A stretch of 64,000 nucleotides of DNA from Capnocytophaga sp. (lineage in GTDB: Bacteria; Bacteroidota; Bacteroidia; Flavobacteriales; Flavobacteriaceae). Made by a program: the position numbers and the translations under genes. The notes beneath the pieces are model-generated. The model did not search any database and was not told where the DNA came from. It saw only the letters and a list, made by a program, of their open reading frames with translations. The stretch is taken from contig JAUMUT010000003.1 in the NCBI GenBank assembly GCA_030530525.1, positions 62,001 through 126,000 on the forward strand, written 5' to 3'. This document shows positions 13,343-53,741 of this stretch, piece by piece (the stretch's first letter is position 1; every line of letters begins with the position of its first letter).

Positions 13343-13453
13343 CTACTCATAAAACTTTGTAGGCGACACCCCTAAGTGCTGTTGTACAAAGCGTGAAAAG
13401 TAAGCGGTGGAGGAAAACCCAAAAAGCTCAGTAAGCTCGGTGATACTGAGCTT
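13343..13453 (-). pseudogene. C-terminal HTH remnant of an AraC-family regulator
   Basis: On the minus strand 13453-13343 reads LSITELTELFGFSSTAYFSR followed by a Phe-x4-His-x-Gly-Val-Ser-Pro motif and a TAG stop. This is the second helix-turn-helix of an AraC/XylS activator. Nothing of the N-terminal part remains. Its upstream end meets the SDR remnant at the shared string GAGCTTTT. Confidence 0.8.
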
Positions 13454-13785
13454 TTATCAACGCTACCGACATCGCCATTGACGGCGGACATTCGGGCGTA
13501 TATGCAGGCGATTTGCAGTAGTCGTAGCACGTACGCAATTAATAGTATAATTTCTTAAATCTTCCATTCAAGTGAACAACTTCACGATGTGAAAATTATT
13601 TGTAAAGTACAATATTTTATAAAAAAAGATATTTTATAAACTATATTGAGAGTGTATTTTAGTGTGAAAAATTATAAAAAAAACAAAAACACGAATTTTT
13701 TTCTAAAAAAAATTCGTTTTTTTACTTTTTTTACATTACCTTTGCACCATAGAAATTTTAAAATAAAAGACAAAATGAAAAAAAT
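13448..13785 (+). repeat. Long direct repeat, copy A (SDR tail plus promoter region)
   Basis: Imperfect repeat of 18409-18728 in the same orientation, about 320 bp with one indel of roughly 30 bp. It includes the last 24 codons of an SDR gene, its 3' flank, an A/T-rich inverted repeat (AACACGAATTTTTTTC and its complement), the TACCTTTG -7 box and the ATG of a lipoprotein gene. Confidence 0.85.
13450..13521 (+). pseudogene. SDR family C-terminal remnant, copy A
   Basis: AFINATDIAIDGGHSGVYAG then a stop at 13521. The NATDI-x-IDGG motif is the C-terminal end of classical SDR oxidoreductases. A longer remnant of the same gene family lies at 18265-18482. Confidence 0.8.
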
Positions 13786-14854
13786 TGCAGTTTTACTATT
13801 AGGGTTATGTACCTTGTTTGGGTGTAAAAAGGAGGAGGAAACTACTACTGATTCTATTGATTTTTCTGTAAAATTAGTGAATGAATTTCTTCCTGAAAAA
13901 GGGATAAACGAAACTACTAGATTATATTTTGATATTGAAACTAAGACTCCTTTACAATATAGGATAGAAACTACTTTCCCTGATTCAAAAATCAAATTAG
14001 GAAACAAAGTAGAAAACACTTTTCTTTCTTTTAGGAATAATTATAATTTAGAAGAACCTGAATTAATACTTGATTATACTGCTTTAAAAGCAGGAGCTCA
14101 CACAGTAAGAGTCGTTTTTTTCAATTACAAAGGACAGGAAATAGTAAAAGAGCTTGTTTTAAAATTTAGAGTCTATGGATATGAATTGAAGGTCAGAAAT
14201 GGAAAAACCAATCCGAATCAAGGAGAAAACGTGGATTTTGATTTAGAAATAACCCCAGACAACCCTAATATACCTCATTATATTATATTTAAAAATTATG
14301 GAAAATTTAAAAACAATGAAGATACCAGCTTACAAAAAACGTTTATTGCCCTGAATGGACAAAAAATTACTTTTGGTAAGGAATATAAAATAGAAGATTT
14401 TAACAAAGTGCAGGTGCGTATCAATTCTTTTGATAGAGGCAAGCAAGAATTAAACTATGTCATAAAAAATAATACTTTTAGTAGGGAAGAACAAATACAA
14501 CAAAAAGTAAAGGAAAATCAAATCTTTTATGAACTATTAAAAACAGAATTTAAAAAATTAGACAATGGTGTTTACATAACTAATGTAACAGCAAGAATAA
14601 CCAAAACCCCTAAGTTTAGTAACAAACTACAATATAGAAGTCTAATCTCCTCATCTAGAGAAATTGATGGAACTGATGAATGGATAGACCTCACAATGCA
14701 AGAAAACGGAATAATAAATTTTTCTGTTAAAACAAAAAGATTAAATAAAGAAACTACCTATGGAGGAAAAGTAGACATACGAGATGAGTTTGAAAATAGT
14801 ACAACCTGTTATTTTTTAATAGATTATTTATTTGATTATACCCCCTCTAATTAA
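13775..14854 (+). CDS. Expressed lipoprotein of the invertible pair (possible TraQ/DUF3872-like module)
   Basis: The start at 13775 gives a lipoprotein signal with lipobox LFGC (Cys17), 24 nt after a TACCTTTG -7 box. The mature 340 residues look like tandem beta-sandwich modules: IETKTPLQYRIETTFPD, GAHTVRVVFFNYKGQEIVKE, then the conserved NGKTNPNQGENVDFDLEIT to KVQVRINSFD module. This last module vaguely resembles the Bacteroides TraQ (DUF3872) domain, at low confidence. Bases 14318-14427 are a perfect inverted repeat with the silent paralogue at 16468-16577. Surface location is inferred from the lipoprotein signal. Its promoter region is duplicated in front of the lipoprotein gene at 18720. 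Confidence 0.75.
   Translation: MKKIAVLLLGLCTLFGCKKEEETTTDSIDFSVKLVNEFLPEKGINETTRLYFDIETKTPLQYRIETTFPDSKIKLGNKVENTFLSFRNNYNLEEPELILDYTALKAGAHTVRVVFFNYKGQEIVKELVLKFRVYGYELKVRNGKTNPNQGENVDFDLEITPDNPNIPHYIIFKNYGKFKNNEDTSLQKTFIALNGQKITFGKEYKIEDFNKVQVRINSFDRGKQELNYVIKNNTFSREEQIQQKVKENQIFYELLKTEFKKLDNGVYITNVTARITKTPKFSNKLQYRSLISSSREIDGTDEWIDLTMQENGIINFSVKTKRLNKETTYGGKVDIRDEFENSTTCYFLIDYLFDYTPSN
14318..14427 (+). repeat. 110-bp perfect inverted repeat, expressed arm
   Basis: Base-for-base identical to the reverse complement of 16468-16577. Weaker homology extends on both sides (about 14195-14490). It lies inside the conserved module of the lipoprotein gene. Confidence 0.95.
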
Positions 14855-14857
14855 CAT

Positions 14858-14901
14858 AAAAATATACCCTATACATACAGTCGTATAGGGTATATTTTTT
14901 T
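14858..14901. terminator. Bidirectional terminator between convergent lipoprotein genes
   Basis: AATATACCCTATAC and GTATAGGGTATATT form a perfect stem with an 8-nt loop (14861-14896), with A and T runs on the two sides. It serves both the 13775 gene and the minus-strand 14931 gene and lies inside the potentially invertible segment. Confidence 0.9.
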
Positions 14902-14930
14902 GAATAATAAATAAGGTTATTCATTAATCG

Positions 14931-16940
14931 CTAATAATTCATTTTTTGAAATTCAATCAAATTAATTTCTCTATGGTATGAACTTTTTGTTGTTACTATT
15001 TCTATTTTAGCTTTATATTTTTTTTGTGCTATTTGTAGAAGATCTGTTTTTATACTTGGAGTTGTACCTAAACTAAAAACAGATTTTAAATTCACTCTTT
15101 GCACAGTATGTTCTTCATTATAAGAATTTCCATTTCCTAATTCCCAATCATTCCAATCTGCTGAAGAGGCTGTTCTTATTTTAAGAGTATGGTTATTCCC
15201 ATTTTTATCTTTATATATATACGTTTCTGATTCTTTAGGAAACCTCACAAAAACTTTTAATAATTTTTCATTTTGATCGAATGTTGCTATATTTAATTTA
15301 AGTTTTATATAGTTTTGATATTGATTGTTATTCCAAATTGAGTAGGGACTTAGAACAATGCCATAAGCTTCTTTTACGATTAATGGACTGCGTACGGAGA
15401 TTGGTATTTGTTCCCGCCATTCATTCCCATATTCATCTTTAAATTCTATATGGTAAATATAGTATTGTTCCTGAGAACTTTTTAACGATAGAGAAAATTC
15501 ATTATTTTCTGTTAAAGTTATATTTTCCCAATTATAATTTGTTGTTGTAAATATATCATTTGATAACGTTGTAAGAGTTTCATCATTTTCATAGAATGCG
15601 ACTGACCTATATTGAATTTTTTTTGTTTTAGAACGATGATTTACTTTTCCTTTTATGGTAAAAGTATGATTTTCATAAATATATTTATCTATTTCAAAAG
15701 AAACACTTATGGGAGCTTTTTTAAAGTCAATTATAGTCTCTTTTCTTACTTTAATTTCTTCATTACTCTCTTCAAATATTTCATAAACTAATTTTTTTTG
15801 TCCATAATTAAAAGAACTTATAGATATATAATTATTTTTATTTTTTCCATTGATTTCTCTTAATTCATTTATTTTTATATCTTTTTCATTTATTTTTATG
15901 GAAGAGTTGTATAAATTTATATCCTTTTCATCAAAAGAAATGAATTTTATTTTATATTTTCCTTTTTCATAGCTCCCATTAATATTGAAAATTAAAGAAA
16001 CAGCGTCTCCTTGATAAATATCAGATAAATCAGACGTTATCTGTTCTATAGAAAATGTTTTATCATTAATTGTAATTTGTTTTTCTATAGTATTGGAAGT
16101 ATTTTCAAATTCATCTTTAAATTGAATAAAATATGTATATTTACCTGCTTTTTGGCTTTTTATATTGATATTAAATTCATTACTGTCTGATAAAGTATAT
16201 TCTTTGTATTGATTATCTGTATTTTCTATTCCATTTTTTTCTCCTTCTGACAACCAAGTTTTGTACCAAATTTTCTTATTATAGCTTGGACTTTTAGTAA
16301 TATATCCTTTTATATTTAATATTTCTTGTATATTATTTGTTTCTTCTTTATCGAAATTTATATTTATATTTATCACATTTTTAAGAACATTCTGTTGGAT
16401 ATATTCTTCTCGTTGCGAGGTGCTATTTTTTATTACATATTTCAGTTGTTTATTCCCTGCGTTAAAGGAATTGATACGCACCTGCACTTTGTTAAAATCT
16501 TCTATTTTATATTCCTTACCAAAAGTAATTTTTTGTCCATTCAGGGCAATAAACGTTTTTTGTAAGCTGGTATCTTCGGGGTCGTAGCTTTTGAATATAA
16601 CATAGTAGTCTGTTGCTGTATTTTCAGGAGTAATTTTCAGGTCAAAATCCACATTTTCTCCTTGATTCGGATTGGTTTTTCCATTAAGCACTTGCAAAGT
16701 ATATCCAAATTCTTTATAGTTTAAAGAAAATTCTTTTACACTTTCTTTTCCTTTATTATTAAAGAAAGTAACCTTTATTTTATGGTCTCCTTTTTCTTTT
16801 CCTGTATAATACAGTTGTAACTTAGGTTCGGTGAGAGTATAATCATCTCCTTTAAGGATTTTCTTAGTTCCGTCTGTTATTTCTGCTTTGAGAGAGGATT
16901 CAATTTTATATTTTAAAAAACAGAGTAAAATAATAAACTT
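14931..16940 (-). pseudogene. Silent, 5'-truncated lipoprotein paralogue (alternative C-terminus)
   Basis: The minus-strand frame is open from 16940 with no ATG, GTG or TTG until the TTG at 16697, which is an internal Leu of the conserved module. From 16919 it aligns with residues about 65 onward of the 13775 protein (KYKIESS, HKIKVTFFNNKGKESVKEF, NGKTNPNQGENVDFDL). It therefore lacks start codon, signal peptide and promoter. After the shared module it diverges into about 480 residues with at least three more beta-rich modules and repeated EFENT/EYGNEW-type motifs. The uninterrupted 3' part suggests selection, as expected of a silent cassette. Confidence 0.8.
16468..16577 (-). repeat. 110-bp perfect inverted repeat, silent arm
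   Basis: Reverse complement of 14318-14427 with no mismatch. The two arms bound about 2 kb that could invert by recombination. Confidence 0.95.
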
Positions 16941-17075: not shown

Positions 17076-17361
17076 ATGAAAAAGATATTATCGTAGTCAT
17101 TGGGGTAGTCAAGCCCCTATGATTATGCACACCTTTTATGAGACCTATCGCGAGCAACTACAAGGCAAAATCCTTATCCCTTTCGGTACGCACGAGATGA
17201 GTGGCATCAGTGGGTTAGAACGCGCTATGCGCACTGATGTAGGCAACAACGCTCGATACTTGCAAGGCTTAGGGCTTATAGGGCGCACCATCACCAACCC
17301 CGAAGTACAAGGACAGATACACTCGTGGTTACGACAACTCGACTTTCAACAAATACAGTAG
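17076..17361 (+). pseudogene. SDR start fused to the C-terminal part of a flavodoxin
   Basis: 17076-17109 copies the first 33 bases of the intact SDR gene at 21975 with one A missing, which puts TAG at codon 7. At the shared string TTGGGGTAG the sequence switches to a flavodoxin: WGSQAPMIMHTFYETY, ILIPFGTHEMSGISG and a final GLGLIGRTITNPEVQGQI, the C-terminal third of Flavodoxin_4-type proteins. Neither part can make a working protein. Higher GC than average, like other oxidoreductase debris here. Confidence 0.8.
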
Positions 17362-17381
17362 AACTTAAAATTATATATACA

Positions 17382-18264
17382 ATGAAAAAGACACTATTTT
17401 TCCTGTTACTTTTTACCTCTTATCTCTTACCTGCTCAAGAGGCTAAAATTCTATCTCTTTCCGAAACTATCTGGAAAGCAATGCAAGAGGTAAATACCCC
17501 TATCCTTACTGAAAACATCGCCCCTGAAGCCGTATTTGTGCATATGGGGGCTACCCTTACTCGTGATAAGGAAATGGAGGTATTAGCCCAGAGGGACATC
17601 GTACTAAAAGAAGTTGAAACCCAAGAAACCTCCGTACGCATCGTAGGCAAAACGGCTGTACTCTTGCGCAAGCTCCGCCTTACCGCTATTGTGGGAGGCA
17701 ATAAGGTACTCCAATGGGGATTGTGCGAGGTAAGCCCTGAGACCATTCGTAAAGCGCATAAAATTCTACCACTTACGGTTATACAAAGCGAATACTCTCT
17801 ATTTGTTTAGAGGAAGAGAAAACGATGTTATCCCCGTATGTGAAGAACTCGGTATTGGTTTTGTGCCTTGGAGCCCGCTGGGTATGGGTACTCTTTGCGG
17901 TTATGTGGATGAGCGCACCCGCTTTAACAATCCGCCTGAGAAAGACCTCAAAACGATTATCCCTCGTTTTTCAGAACAAGCGATGAAGCACAATCTCGCC
18001 CTTTACCAGATGATAGACCGCTTTGCCAAAGAAAAGGGGTGCACCACTGCACAGTTTGCCTTAGCGTGGTTGCAAGCCCAAAAACCTTTTATCGTGGCTA
18101 TCCCAGGCACTACCAAGGGTTACCACTTATTGGAGAACCTCGGTGCTACTGATATTACCTTCACTACCAAAGAACTCATCCAATACCGTAACGCCCTTGA
18201 CAGTTTTACTGTGGAAGGGTTGCGATTACCTGAGATGATACTCAATTTTTCAGAAGTACGGTAA
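17382..18264 (+). pseudogene. NTF2-like signal-peptide protein fused in frame to an aldo/keto reductase tail, then frameshifted
   Basis: The ATG at 17382 begins a signal peptide (LLLFTSYLLPAQ) and the first two thirds of a DUF4440/NTF2 domain (ETIWKAMQE, EAVFVHMGATL, SVRIVGKTAVLL). Around 17720 it switches in frame to AKR sequence: GLCEVSPETIRKAHKILPLT and QSEYSLF. An extra T in GTTTAGAGG at about 17808 gives TAG. The AKR continues in the next frame from 17803 ([20 protein letters not shown] to IVAIPGTTKGYHLLENLG) to 18264. So one chimera plus one frameshift; the downstream AKR tail is otherwise clean. Confidence 0.82.
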
Positions 18265-18482
18265 GGACAATGAGGAGTGGTAATACATCGCTCAGCCCTG
18301 AGCAGTTACAAGCCTTTGCTAAGACCGTAAGCAACGAAATTCCCGCAGGGCGTGCAGGCACTCCGCAAGAAATAGGCGACCTCGTAGTGTTCCTCGCCTC
18401 TGATGCTGGAGCTTTTGTCAATGCTACCGACATCACCATTGACGGCGGACATTTGGGCGTATATGCAGGCGATTTACAGTAG
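18265..18482 (+). pseudogene. SDR family C-terminal fragment, copy B
   Basis: Reads SPEQLQAFAKTVSNEIPAGR, GTPQEIGDLVVFLASDAGAF and VNATDITIDGGHLGVYAGDL, the last third of a classical SDR. The catalytic Tyr-x3-Lys and Rossmann parts are absent. The last 24 codons and the downstream flank are repeated at 13450. Confidence 0.85.
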
Positions 18483-18728
18483 TCGTAGCACGACACACAA
18501 TTAATAGTACGATCTCTTAAATCTTCCTTCCAAATGAACAGCTTTATGATGTGAAAATTATTTGTAAAAGGATAATATTGTAAAACTACATAAAGAAGTG
18601 TGAAATAGTGTAAAAAATTATAAAAAAAAACAAAAACACGAATTTTTTTCTAAAAAAATTCGTGTTTTTGTTTTTTTACATTACCTTTGCACCATAGAAA
18701 TTTTAAAATAATAAGCAAAATGAAAAAA
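18409..18728 (+). repeat. Long direct repeat, copy B
   Basis: Partner of 13448-13785. It carries the SDR tail, a strong A/T-rich inverted repeat (AAAACACGAATTTTTTTC pairing with its complement, 18634-18668), the -7 box TACCTTTG (18682-18689) and the start of the next lipoprotein. Confidence 0.85.
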
Positions 18729-19211
18729 TTAGTAATCTTAGTAATTGGAATACTACTTAGTAGTTGTGGAAATGGAAATAGTACAACAGAGGTAGCAGTA
18801 GCCCCTGAAAATAGAGAAAGTTTTACAGAAAATCCTTATTTTAAAAGTGAAGAGTTTTTGAAAGAAGACGATTTCCTTTTTAATAGAAAAAGGAATTATG
18901 AAAAAATAAAAGAAAGGGAATATAATACAATAGAAGAACTTCTTTATTCTTTTTTTGGAGGAGATAAAGAAGTAGTAGATTTGTCAATGAAATATGCAAG
19001 AGAAATTATAGAGGAAGCGGAAAAAGAAACTAAAAGTAAATTTTTTTTAGATCAAACGAGTGGTAGTAAGTATATTTATTACACCCCCATTGATACAACA
19101 GGAGGTGTTACAAGAAAAATTTTTATATGGTTTGGAGGTGATGAAAAAAATCGTCCTGTTATAAAATTTTCAAAAAAAATAGACAAAGAAAACAGAGTGT
19201 TCCTTTTTTAA
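18720..19211 (+). CDS. Small lipoprotein of unknown function
   Basis: The ATG at 18720 gives a lipoprotein signal with lipobox LSSC (Cys17), followed by a low-complexity linker (GNGNSTTEVAVAPE). The mature part is charged and rich in Glu, Lys, Phe and Tyr (FLKEDDFLFNRKRNYEKIKE, IEELLYSFFGGD) and ends in strands YIYYTPID and RKIFIWFGGDE. No family recognised. Promoter and first codons are nearly identical to those of the lipoprotein at 13775, so the two share expression signals by duplication. A clear terminator follows. Confidence 0.7.
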   Translation: MKKLVILVIGILLSSCGNGNSTTEVAVAPENRESFTENPYFKSEEFLKEDDFLFNRKRNYEKIKEREYNTIEELLYSFFGGDKEVVDLSMKYAREIIEEAEKETKSKFFLDQTSGSKYIYYTPIDTTGGVTRKIFIWFGGDEKNRPVIKFSKKIDKENRVFLF

Positions 19212-19266: not shown

Positions 19267-19914
19267 TCATTTTCGCATATGCTTATCTAAAGCACTTTCT
19301 ACAGCATTTCCTACTGCTCCTCCAATACTTTTACTTAGATTATTACTTAAAGAAGACATTGCCTTACCTGCCACTACTCCTCCTGCTACCGCTCCTGCAA
19401 CTCCTAAACCTGCTTTTGCTACTCCAAGCCCTGCACTTACTCCATTCATTGTTGTCATAGAACCCATAGCTCCTGCAATGGACGCTCCTGCACCATTGAT
19501 AACCACACCTGCCGCACTTGTTGTTAAAGAAATTGACTGAAAGGCTAAAATAATGGCTACAATAGTAAGCCAAACAATTTGCCCACTGCCTAAGGAACTA
19601 TCCGTCATTAATCCGATGATAATACTACAAATAAAACCATACAGAGCATTAAAAATAGGTGTCCAAAGAAGAATATTTAACATATTAAGCATAAAGGTTT
19701 TCCACGTATTCTCAAAGCCTGGAATAAAGGCTAATAAAAACACTAACTTCGTTCCTGCTACCATTACTGTCAGGAGTACCTTTACCATTATTGAAATTAT
19801 AAACGCGGGTACAGCCATAATGGTAGAAAAAATTAATATAAAGAAACAAAAATAAAAATACTTAAATTGTAAATAAAAATTACCATCTAATATTTCTAAC
19901 TTCCATTTTTCCAA
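19267..19914 (-). pseudogene. TraJ/VirB6-like conjugation membrane protein, 5'-truncated
   Basis: Four or five hydrophobic helices (FCFFILIFSTIMAVPAF, VLLTVMVAGTKLVFLLAF, NILLWTPIFNALYGFI, IVWLTIVAIILAFQSISL) followed by a Gly/Ala-rich tail with GLGVAKAGLGVAGAVAGGVV. This pattern fits the C-terminal part of VirB6/TraJ-type channel proteins of Bacteroidetes conjugative elements, which are about 300 residues or longer. The frame opens only with TTG at 19914; upstream the frame runs into GC-rich sequence (19921-19950) without a start. No other tra gene is nearby, so it is a remnant. Assignment is by hydropathy and composition, not a firm match. Confidence 0.5.
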
Positions 19915-20751: not shown

Positions 20752-21783
20752 ATGAAAAAAATTGTATTGACAATGATTGCGTTAGGAACTTTGACCCTAA
20801 CTAATTGCGGTAAAGAAACCGAAACAGTAATTGAACGTGTAGAAGTTCAGAAAGGTAGCCAAATTCTTTCAGGGGATGGAGCACCCAATGCTTCGTTAGG
20901 AAGTGTAGGAGATTACTACCTTGACAAAGGTACAATGAATCTTTACGGAGCTAAAACTGCTGACGGCTGGGGAACTCCTGCAAGCCTAAAAGGCATACAA
21001 GGGGAAAAGGGCAAAGACGGTAAAGATGGAGCTAATGGTACTAATGGCTCTGACGGACAAAATGGCACCAATGGAACTAATGGAAAAGATGGGGCTACTA
21101 TCCTTTCGGGAACGACTGCTCCTGTTGCTTCACAAGGGAAAGTAGGAGATTGGTTTATTGATACTCAAAACAAACTCTTGTACGGGCCTAAAACAGAAAG
21201 CGGTTGGGGTTCAGGGATTAGCCTATCAGGTAGCAATGGCAGTAGTATTTCTCAAAAAGCGGATTTCTTAGTAAGTGATGACGGTACGACCTTGTTGCAG
21301 TGGAGAAACAAGAACACTGAAACTATTGATATGACTGTTATTCCTGAATTGGCAAATGTTACCAAAATAGGAAATAGAGCTTTTGAAGGATGTGAAGAGC
21401 TTACAAGCCTTAAACTCACAGATAAAATTACTTCTGTTGGACACTATGCTTTTAGCTATTGCTATAAATTGGAAGAAGTTCACTTTCCTAAAAATGTAAC
21501 AACACTTGGAAATTATCTTTTTGATAGAGCAGGTAATGTTAAAAATGTGTATATAGAAGCTATAACTCCTCCTACATTTATACTGAACAATACAGGAGGA
21601 GGAAATAATAGATTAGATTTAGGTTATTATTCCCATACTATTGAGAATTTCTATGTTCCTGCAAGTGCTTTAAATGTTTATAAAACAAATGAGCAATGGA
21701 AAAAACTTACTGATATAACAGAGTATGACCCTAATACTCACCAACAAGTAGTCAAAGGAACTAAACTAAAACCAATACAATAA
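20752..21783 (+). CDS. Surface lipoprotein with collagen-like repeats and BspA-type leucine-rich repeats
   Basis: Lipoprotein signal with lipobox LTNC (Cys19). Residues about 33-75 and 117-160 are two copies of a module (SQILSGDGAPNASLGSVGDY / ATILSGTTAPVASQGKVGDW) seen in bacterial collagen-like surface proteins. They flank a Gly-x-x stretch (GIQGEKGKDGKDGANGTNGS). From about 170 come BspA-type LRRs: TKIGNRAFEGCEELTSLKL, SVGHYAFSYCYKLEEVHFP, TLGNYLFDRAGNVKNVYI, then the capping NFYVPASALNVYKTNEQWK. Likely surface-exposed adhesin-like protein. It follows the structured RNA region and has its own terminator. Confidence 0.85.
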   Translation: MKKIVLTMIALGTLTLTNCGKETETVIERVEVQKGSQILSGDGAPNASLGSVGDYYLDKGTMNLYGAKTADGWGTPASLKGIQGEKGKDGKDGANGTNGSDGQNGTNGTNGKDGATILSGTTAPVASQGKVGDWFIDTQNKLLYGPKTESGWGSGISLSGSNGSSISQKADFLVSDDGTTLLQWRNKNTETIDMTVIPELANVTKIGNRAFEGCEELTSLKLTDKITSVGHYAFSYCYKLEEVHFPKNVTTLGNYLFDRAGNVKNVYIEAITPPTFILNNTGGGNNRLDLGYYSHTIENFYVPASALNVYKTNEQWKKLTDITEYDPNTHQQVVKGTKLKPIQ

Positions 21784-51872: not shown

Positions 51873-53741
51873 TTATTTTTTAGAATTTACAATATCAATA
51901 ATTTTATTGAAATTGGTTATAACATCTCTATTTGTTCCTTCTATAAATCCATTTCCCTCTTGAGTAGCATATCCTCCATCAAAAGTATTTTGGATTAAAT
52001 TTTCTATTTCCGTATCAGGGAATTGTTTTCTGTATCCTTCCGCTTCACGCGCCATAAGCTCAATATGTGCATATACTACTCCATAAGTGTAAATATCTTC
52101 ATATATTTTTTGGGCTTCTTTTAAAGTAAGATTTTCTTTTTTAGAGAGATATGTACCTTTTGAATCAGAAGTTAGTTTAGCTCCAAATCTCCAAGTTTCG
52201 GATTGGTTTTTATTTTTAAATTTATTCAAAGGATATGGGTCTTCTTTATTAACAAGAGTAAATAATTTGTCAAATTCTTTTAAAGTGTTTTCTATAAGTT
52301 GTTTGTAAGTATTAACATCATTTATTCCTGTTTTATAATAAGGAATATTAGCTCGGTGTGCTATTTTGTTAAAAGATTTTGGCACAGCATAAACAGTCGC
52401 TTCCAGCGTACCTCTTTTTTTTCCGTCTTGTGTGGTAATATTAACTTTTGTAGTTCCCACTTTTTTTGCTAACAGAGTGATTTTGTTGTCTTTAACCTCA
52501 TCTTGTAGTGCTACGATGTCTGCATTTTCCACTTGTATTTTGTCGGTGGCATTTAGCGTACCAACAATAGTTACTACGGCAGTTTTACCTTCTTCTATGG
52601 TTGCTTTTTCAGGAGAGAAAGTTAATAATAATTTAGGAGTAACAGTTGCTTCCAGTGTCCCTCTTTTTTTGCCATCTTGTGTGGTAATATTAACTTTTGT
52701 AGTTCCCACTTTTTTTGCTAATAGAGTGATTTTGTTGTCTTTAACCTCACCTTGTAGCGTTACGATGTCCGCATTTTCCACTTGTATTTTGTCGGTGGCA
52801 TTTAGCGTACCAACAATAGTTACTACGGCAGTTTTACCTTCTTCTATGGTTGCTTTTTCAGGAGAGAAAGTTAATAATAATTTAGGAGTAACAGTTGCTT
52901 CCAGTGTACCTCTTTTTTTTCCATCTTGTGTGGTAATATTAACTTTTGTAGTTCCCACTTTTTTTGCTAACAGAGTGATTTTGTTGTCTTTAACCTCACC
53001 TTGTAGTGCTACGATATCCGCATTTTCCACTTGTATTTTGTCGGTGGCATTTAGCGTGCCCACAATGGTTACTACGGTAGTTTTACCTTCTTCTATGGTA
53101 GCTTTTTCAGGGGTAAAATGTAAATCAAAAACAGGAGTAACAGTCGCTTCCAGCGTACCTCTTTTTTTGCCATCTTGTGTGGTAATATTAACTTTTGTAG
53201 TTCCCACTTTTTTTGCTAATAGAGTGATTTTGTTGTCTTTAACCTCACCTTGTAGCGTTACGATGTCCGCACTTTCCACTTGTATTTTGTCGGTGGCATT
53301 TAGCGTACCCACAATGGTTACTACGGCAGTTTTACCTTCTTCTATGGTAGCTTTTTCAGGGGTAAAATGTAAATCAAAAACAGGAGTAACAGTCGCTTCC
53401 AGCGTACCTCTTTTTTTGCCATCTTGTGTGGTAATATTAACTTTTGTAGTTCCCACTTTTTTTGCTAATAGAGTGATTTTGTTGTCTTTAACCTCACCTT
53501 GTAGCGTTACGATGTCCGCATTTTCCACTTGTATTTTGTCGGTGGCATTTAGCGTACCAACAATAGTTACTACGGCAGTTTTACCTTTTTCAATTTCTAA
53601 TTTTTCAGGATTAAACTTTAATTCCGTCAAAGGAGATTGCGGTTTTTCTGGTTTTTGTGGTTCATCATCATTTTTTTTGCAGTTTGCAAAAAGAAAACTT
53701 ATGGCCAAAGCCATTAACGTAATGTTAAAAAATTGTTTCAT
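51873..53741 (-). CDS. Lipoprotein with five near-identical 83-residue Ig-like repeats
   Basis: Lipoprotein signal with Cys20 or Cys21 (LFANCKKN). After a Pro-rich linker come five repeats of 83 residues, each with EEGKTAVVTIVGTLNATDKI, VTLQGEVKDNKITLLAKKVG and TTKVNITTQDGKKRGTLEAT, a BIG2-like beta-sandwich. The DNA repeats (249 bp, about 52390-53635) are nearly identical, so copy number can change by recombination. The last 165 residues are a separate helical domain (FNKIAHRANIPYYKTGINDV, YEDIYTYGVVYAHIELMARE) of unknown type. Likely a surface stalk presenting the C-terminal domain. Confidence 0.83.
   Translation of the reverse strand: MKQFFNITLMALAISFLFANCKKNDDEPQKPEKPQSPLTELKFNPEKLEIEKGKTAVVTIVGTLNATDKIQVENADIVTLQGEVKDNKITLLAKKVGTTKVNITTQDGKKRGTLEATVTPVFDLHFTPEKATIEEGKTAVVTIVGTLNATDKIQVESADIVTLQGEVKDNKITLLAKKVGTTKVNITTQDGKKRGTLEATVTPVFDLHFTPEKATIEEGKTTVVTIVGTLNATDKIQVENADIVALQGEVKDNKITLLAKKVGTTKVNITTQDGKKRGTLEATVTPKLLLTFSPEKATIEEGKTAVVTIVGTLNATDKIQVENADIVTLQGEVKDNKITLLAKKVGTTKVNITTQDGKKRGTLEATVTPKLLLTFSPEKATIEEGKTAVVTIVGTLNATDKIQVENADIVALQDEVKDNKITLLAKKVGTTKVNITTQDGKKRGTLEATVYAVPKSFNKIAHRANIPYYKTGINDVNTYKQLIENTLKEFDKLFTLVNKEDPYPLNKFKNKNQSETWRFGAKLTSDSKGTYLSKKENLTLKEAQKIYEDIYTYGVVYAHIELMAREAEGYRKQFPDTEIENLIQNTFDGGYATQEGNGFIEGTNRDVITNFNKIIDIVNSKK
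52390..53635 (-). repeat. Five tandem 249-bp coding repeats
   Basis: The marker CCAACAATAG/CCCACAATGG recurs at 52561, 52810, 53059, 53308 and 53557, exactly 249 bp apart. Copies differ by a few bases only; the multiple of three keeps the frame when units are gained or lost. Confidence 0.95.

Follow-up and report, generated by a model that had tools for sequence, protein, structure and literature searches.

Gene-altering inversions have reportedly been surveyed systematically, by Milman et al. in 2023. The closest described systems are the inverting type I restriction-modification hsdS loci (SpnIII; PMC7394358, PMC6620402). In pneumococcus, expressed and silent hsdS genes switch through inverted repeats of 15–333 bp, even without RecA (PMC6620402). 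A second set comprises the surface-protein shufflons and invertons of Bacteroidota, among them SusC/SusD-associated loci and capsule promoters (PMC10939037, PMC11892184), in which known invertons use short (10–40 nt) invertase sites (PMC11892184). The locus analyzed here lies in a 64,000-nucleotide stretch of a Capnocytophaga contig (the window) and has the anatomy of the hsdS type: an intact gene and a truncated, start-less copy in opposite orientation, identical inverted repeats within both genes, and an in-frame product of 729 aa after inversion. Our preferred reading, which we hold to be probable, is that the two genes are TraQ-type paralogues that lie in a decayed conjugative element and have recently recombined, shaped by gene conversion and subject at most to rare inversion by host recombination.

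The two genes face each other (Table 1) and share 51% amino acid identity. The first-pass annotation, which had described a lipoprotein gene and a start-less paralogue, with a perfect inverted repeat of 110 bp at the corresponding module and reading frame of each, proved exact to the coordinate. The intact gene, P0001, encodes 359 aa; the ATG and the lipobox (LFGC) attributed to it are present, and its promoter has a −7 box (TACCTTTG) of Bacteroidetes-like type but lacks an exact −33 TTTG match. P0002 had been portrayed as a silent copy of about 670 open codons without promoter or start. Its frame does hold 669 open codons, with a single Met, third from the C-terminal end. However, a TAA stands in frame immediately upstream (16943–16941), and weak similarity to the family profile runs through it for ~20 codons beyond; these features together argue for truncation or decay of the 5′ end, and not just for the lack of a promoter. 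Further upstream lies an unrelated promoter-like region, followed by the beginning of an SDR gene that is itself truncated. Between the convergent genes, a strong hairpin terminator (−22.9 kcal/mol, z −7.3) could be used by either orientation.

Table 1 Features of the convergent gene pair and its surroundings, in window positions
Feature	Position	Strand	Remarks
P0001 upstream region: −7-like box, start codon, first codons	13667..13803	+	direct copy, 76% identical, at 18612–18748 upstream of an unrelated lipoprotein
P0001, TraQ-type lipoprotein gene, intact	13775..14854	+	lipobox-bearing signal peptide followed by three Ig-like domains (predicted)
Second exact tract, 32 bp	14198..14229	+	partner 16654–16685, minus strand; diverged sequence between the 32-bp and 110-bp tracts
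Left arm, 110-bp inverted repeat	14318..14427	+	P0001 codons 182–218, within the second Ig-like domain
Hairpin terminator separating the convergent genes, flanked on each side by A/T runs	14858–14899	.	inside the segment that would invert
P0002, TraQ-type paralogue, 5′-truncated, start-less	14931..16940	-	longer C-terminal part with repeated module
Right arm, 110-bp inverted repeat	16468..16577	-	same module and frame of P0002
TraJ C-terminal fragment	19267..19914	-	matches TraJ of a Myroides plasmid (56% identity, 145 aa)

No copies beyond these two were found in the genome itself (2.29 Mb, 76 contigs). An ATG-containing 5′ end of the silent gene elsewhere in the assembly, for which the annotation had allowed, is supplied by no other contig, and this candidate source was rejected. 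The same result bears on the idea that the assembler, and not the genome, set the direction of the segment between the arms or cut P0002 short at its 5′ end. A repeat of 110 bp is long for short-read graphs, and in a draft of 76 contigs the assembler may have picked one orientation across it. However, a single contig of 126 kb contains both arms, the sequence on each of their four sides is unique and diverged, and we regard an assembly effect as highly unlikely.

P0001 and P0002 are homologous to lipoproteins encoded directly after traO in flavobacterial conjugation operons. Relatives from plasmids and genomes take this position in the tra operons of plasmids from Elizabethkingia, Chryseobacterium and Capnocytophaga, and some of them are annotated as "TraQ conjugal transfer family protein". 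The Elizabethkingia TraQ locus was matched by P0002 with an E value of 9e-38 and by P0001 at ~1e-22, and the respective family profile scores are 273.7 and 149.5 bits. Both genes miss the gathering score of Pfam PF12988 (TraQ; 27 bits), with 20.8–25 bits for P0002 and 14.6 bits for P0001, and in the window neither lies directly downstream of traO or in a tra operon. For the divergent 3′ half of P0001 alone, no plasmid relative was found. In the AlphaFold2 prediction (mean pLDDT 82), three all-beta domains stand in tandem and the repeat falls in the middle one. A PDB fold search returned generic Ig/FN3-type matches only, at low TM-scores, and so adds the description "tandem Ig-like" and no function. 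Judged by homology, both genes are TraQ-position conjugal transfer lipoprotein homologues with a putative role in conjugation. They are not known host-interaction antigens, and the antigenic variation suggested in the first-pass annotation is therefore without specific support.

A TraJ fragment lies on the same strand as silent P0002 and in operon order, and is a remnant of a conjugation operon. This open reading frame matched the Myroides TraJ and gave no match to that of Elizabethkingia; with a panel of plasmid tra proteins, it was the only tra homologue found in the window. We infer that the pair lies in what is left of a conjugative element, decayed within the Capnocytophaga chromosome. 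Flank synteny shows little in common within the genus.

Several other features of the region and the genome were recorded. A plus-strand row at 17076–18264 comprises an SDR start, a flavodoxin-like fragment, a DUF4440 gene and the C-terminal half of an aldo/keto reductase. A direct duplication (13448–13803 and 18409–18748; 84% identical over the aligned part) covers the tail of an SDR gene, a palindrome, a region resembling a promoter and the opening codons of a lipoprotein gene; the lipoprotein bodies that follow (starts 13775 and 18723) are unrelated to each other. At 20752–21783, a lipoprotein carries a collagen-like Gly-x-y stretch and then BspA-type leucine-rich repeats (LRR_5), and the minus-strand lipoprotein gene at 51873–53741 consists in part of near-perfect tandem repeats of ~249 bp, with exact stretches of up to 193 bp, and is prone to copy-number change. 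Elsewhere in the same genome, contig C27 bears another conjugation cluster, which seems more complete (TraG, J, K, M, N-like and topoisomerase), and a relative of the P0001/P0002 lipoprotein is absent from the stretch read. On the 3-kb contig C68, a 75-codon fragment (1291–1443) scores above the Pfam TraQ cut-off and was not retrieved as a relative of the pair by protein search.

Across ~124 kb of the contig, no exact inverted repeat is longer than the 110-bp one; the next-longest, at 32 bp, joins the same two genes, and the two tracts, with diverged DNA between them, make P0001 and P0002 a mosaic. Because the 110 bp are identical, synonymous sites included, while the aligned codons outside are only 58% identical (448/774 nt) and the synonymous sites of the flanks differ widely, the tract marks a recent recombination between the copies. 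Against this background, a run of 110 identical bases has a chance probability of ~7e-24, and a chance repeat was rejected. The tract bounds the last exchange to less than ~2.7% pairwise divergence. An inversion by crossover may have occurred, and could recur in the present structure; gene conversion would be the simplest form of exchange and, without crossover, accounts for the repeat equally well.

Inversion of 14318–16577 in silico joined the expressed 5′ end to the silent 3′ half, as had been anticipated, and gave an uninterrupted lipoprotein of 729 aa, in frame and with no stop. This product combines a full TraQ-type N terminus with the longer C-terminal part and matches the family profile from position 1, at 271.7 bits versus 149.5 bits for the present 359-aa gene; the reciprocal product is start-less and has 299 aa. 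Of the three predicted Ig-like domains, the middle one contains the crossover point. Given the in-frame product, an inversion switch is therefore mechanically possible. Exact in-frame joining by the arms is expected of homologous paralogues anyway.

This geometry invites comparison with a functional, hsdS-like two-state switch, in which one promoter would toggle between lipoproteins of 359 aa (short form) and 729 aa (long form). The pairing of an expressed-looking copy with a start-less silent copy whose frame is still open would suit such a switch, as would a perfect, in-frame repeat within a domain, a terminator that serves both orientations, and a long form that covers the TraQ-type profile from its first position; the repeat is also of a length found among those that switch at spnIII, a locus that does not require RecA. 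However, a single repeat pair in a diverged background is what conversion leaves, the locus lies among gene fragments, the alternative orientation was not seen, and the pair occurs in no other genome searched. The annotation had noted that no recombinase gene lies inside the segment, and indeed no PF00589 tyrosine recombinase is present on the contig (C26); the genome-wide search, which covered the tyrosine class, located three such genes, on contigs C43 and C25. We consider the two-state switch unlikely, and just as unlikely the change in a cell-surface conjugation or adhesion protein that it would bring about. Quite unlikely, too, is its more specific form, in which host recombination would drive the switching of a conjugation-derived Ig-like lipoprotein between short and long surface forms after decay of the element; such alternation might, for example, vary mating or exclusion contacts, or adhesion.

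For phase variation as proposed in the first-pass annotation, the geometry works, but neither an alternative orientation nor a sign of reassortment in trees or relative-rate tests was found. None of the genomes searched (20 of the genus, samples of the family and order, and the genome_contigs, viral and plasmid collections) carries the pair, which is why no alternative orientation could appear. Evidence of actual switching is absent, anatomy being all there is, and the locus is not a demonstrated phase-variation system.

The trees and relative rates also bear on a fossil of one past inversion, in which an intact long TraQ-type gene and a truncated copy would have swapped 3′ ends once, leaving the short gene as a derived, fixed form. 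In the B segment, identity to relatives is 32–41% for P0002 and 19–30% for P0001, whereas the N segments are nearly equal; P0002 is thus near canonical and P0001 divergent in B, a direction that a past swap could leave, and the inverted product has both canonical halves. However, P0001 and P0002 are sisters in the trees of both halves (98/98), with P0001 on the longer branch in each, and the heterogeneity of relative rates between the N and B halves is not significant (Fisher p ~0.2). Trees and rates appear to give no sign of past reassortment of the halves, and we lean against it; a fossil inversion seems improbable.

The open frame of P0002 sets a further constraint on timing. Of random substitutions in it, ~6% would introduce a stop codon, and a neutral frame of this size would survive in 50% of cases to 0.5% divergence and in 5% to 2.4%. 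As the frame is still open throughout, it was therefore either silenced very recently or is still selected; by the same token, silencing and the last exchange would be recent, or the sequences under some selection.

Taken together, we favor a history of recombined paralogues, which may be outlined as follows. Two paralogous TraQ-position lipoproteins, tandem Ig-like and of the outer-membrane lipoprotein type, would remain in a decayed conjugative element. One copy would have retained, or else gained, its promoter, start and signal peptide, and the other would have lost its 5′ end, the two converging across a shared terminator. A recent homologous exchange, most simply gene conversion, would then have overwritten 110 bp and produced the identity there, and the resulting inverted repeat may let host recombination occasionally flip the 2.3-kb segment to yield the 729-aa form, probably at low frequency. 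A dedicated switch would not be required. This history is consistent with the sharp identity of the 110-bp and 32-bp tracts in a mosaic of otherwise 58% identity, the homology to traO-adjacent lipoproteins, the TraJ fragment and surrounding gene fragments, the sister relationship in both halves, the lack of PF00589 on the contig and the in-frame inversion product. The fully open P0002 frame and the N/B contrast, which runs in the direction of a past swap, speak against it.

If the locus flips, it would represent an expressed/silent inversion pair that arose from a domesticated conjugation lipoprotein via plain gene conversion, and a route by which a switch can evolve without an invertase. If it does not, gene conversion between relics of mobile elements can build a switch-like architecture, which calls for caution where inverted repeats are a scan's sole basis for inferring phase variation.

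Compared with the Bacteroidota shufflons and invertons, the locus shares the phylum, the lipoprotein type and an invertible-looking geometry, and it differs in having a 110-bp tract of coding homology, no promoter inversion and no identified invertase. With the "TraQ conjugal transfer family" lipoproteins of Flavobacteriia, the pair shares homology over ~290 aa (29–36% for P0002), the signal peptide and lipobox start of P0001, and a module repetition as in the 773-aa protein of the Capnocytophaga sp. oral taxon 878 plasmid; unlike them, both copies lie outside a tra operon, one is without its 5′ end, and neither reaches the PF12988 cut-off. Unlike the inverting hsdS loci, there is here no DNA-specificity gene, only one main repeat pair, no tyrosine-class recombinase gene on the contig and no relative with the same arrangement. 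Like them, it pairs an expressed gene with a silent paralogue in opposite orientation and places perfect inverted repeats, at 110 bp within the known 15–333 bp range, inside homologous modules, such that inversion would exchange the 3′ halves of the expressed gene.
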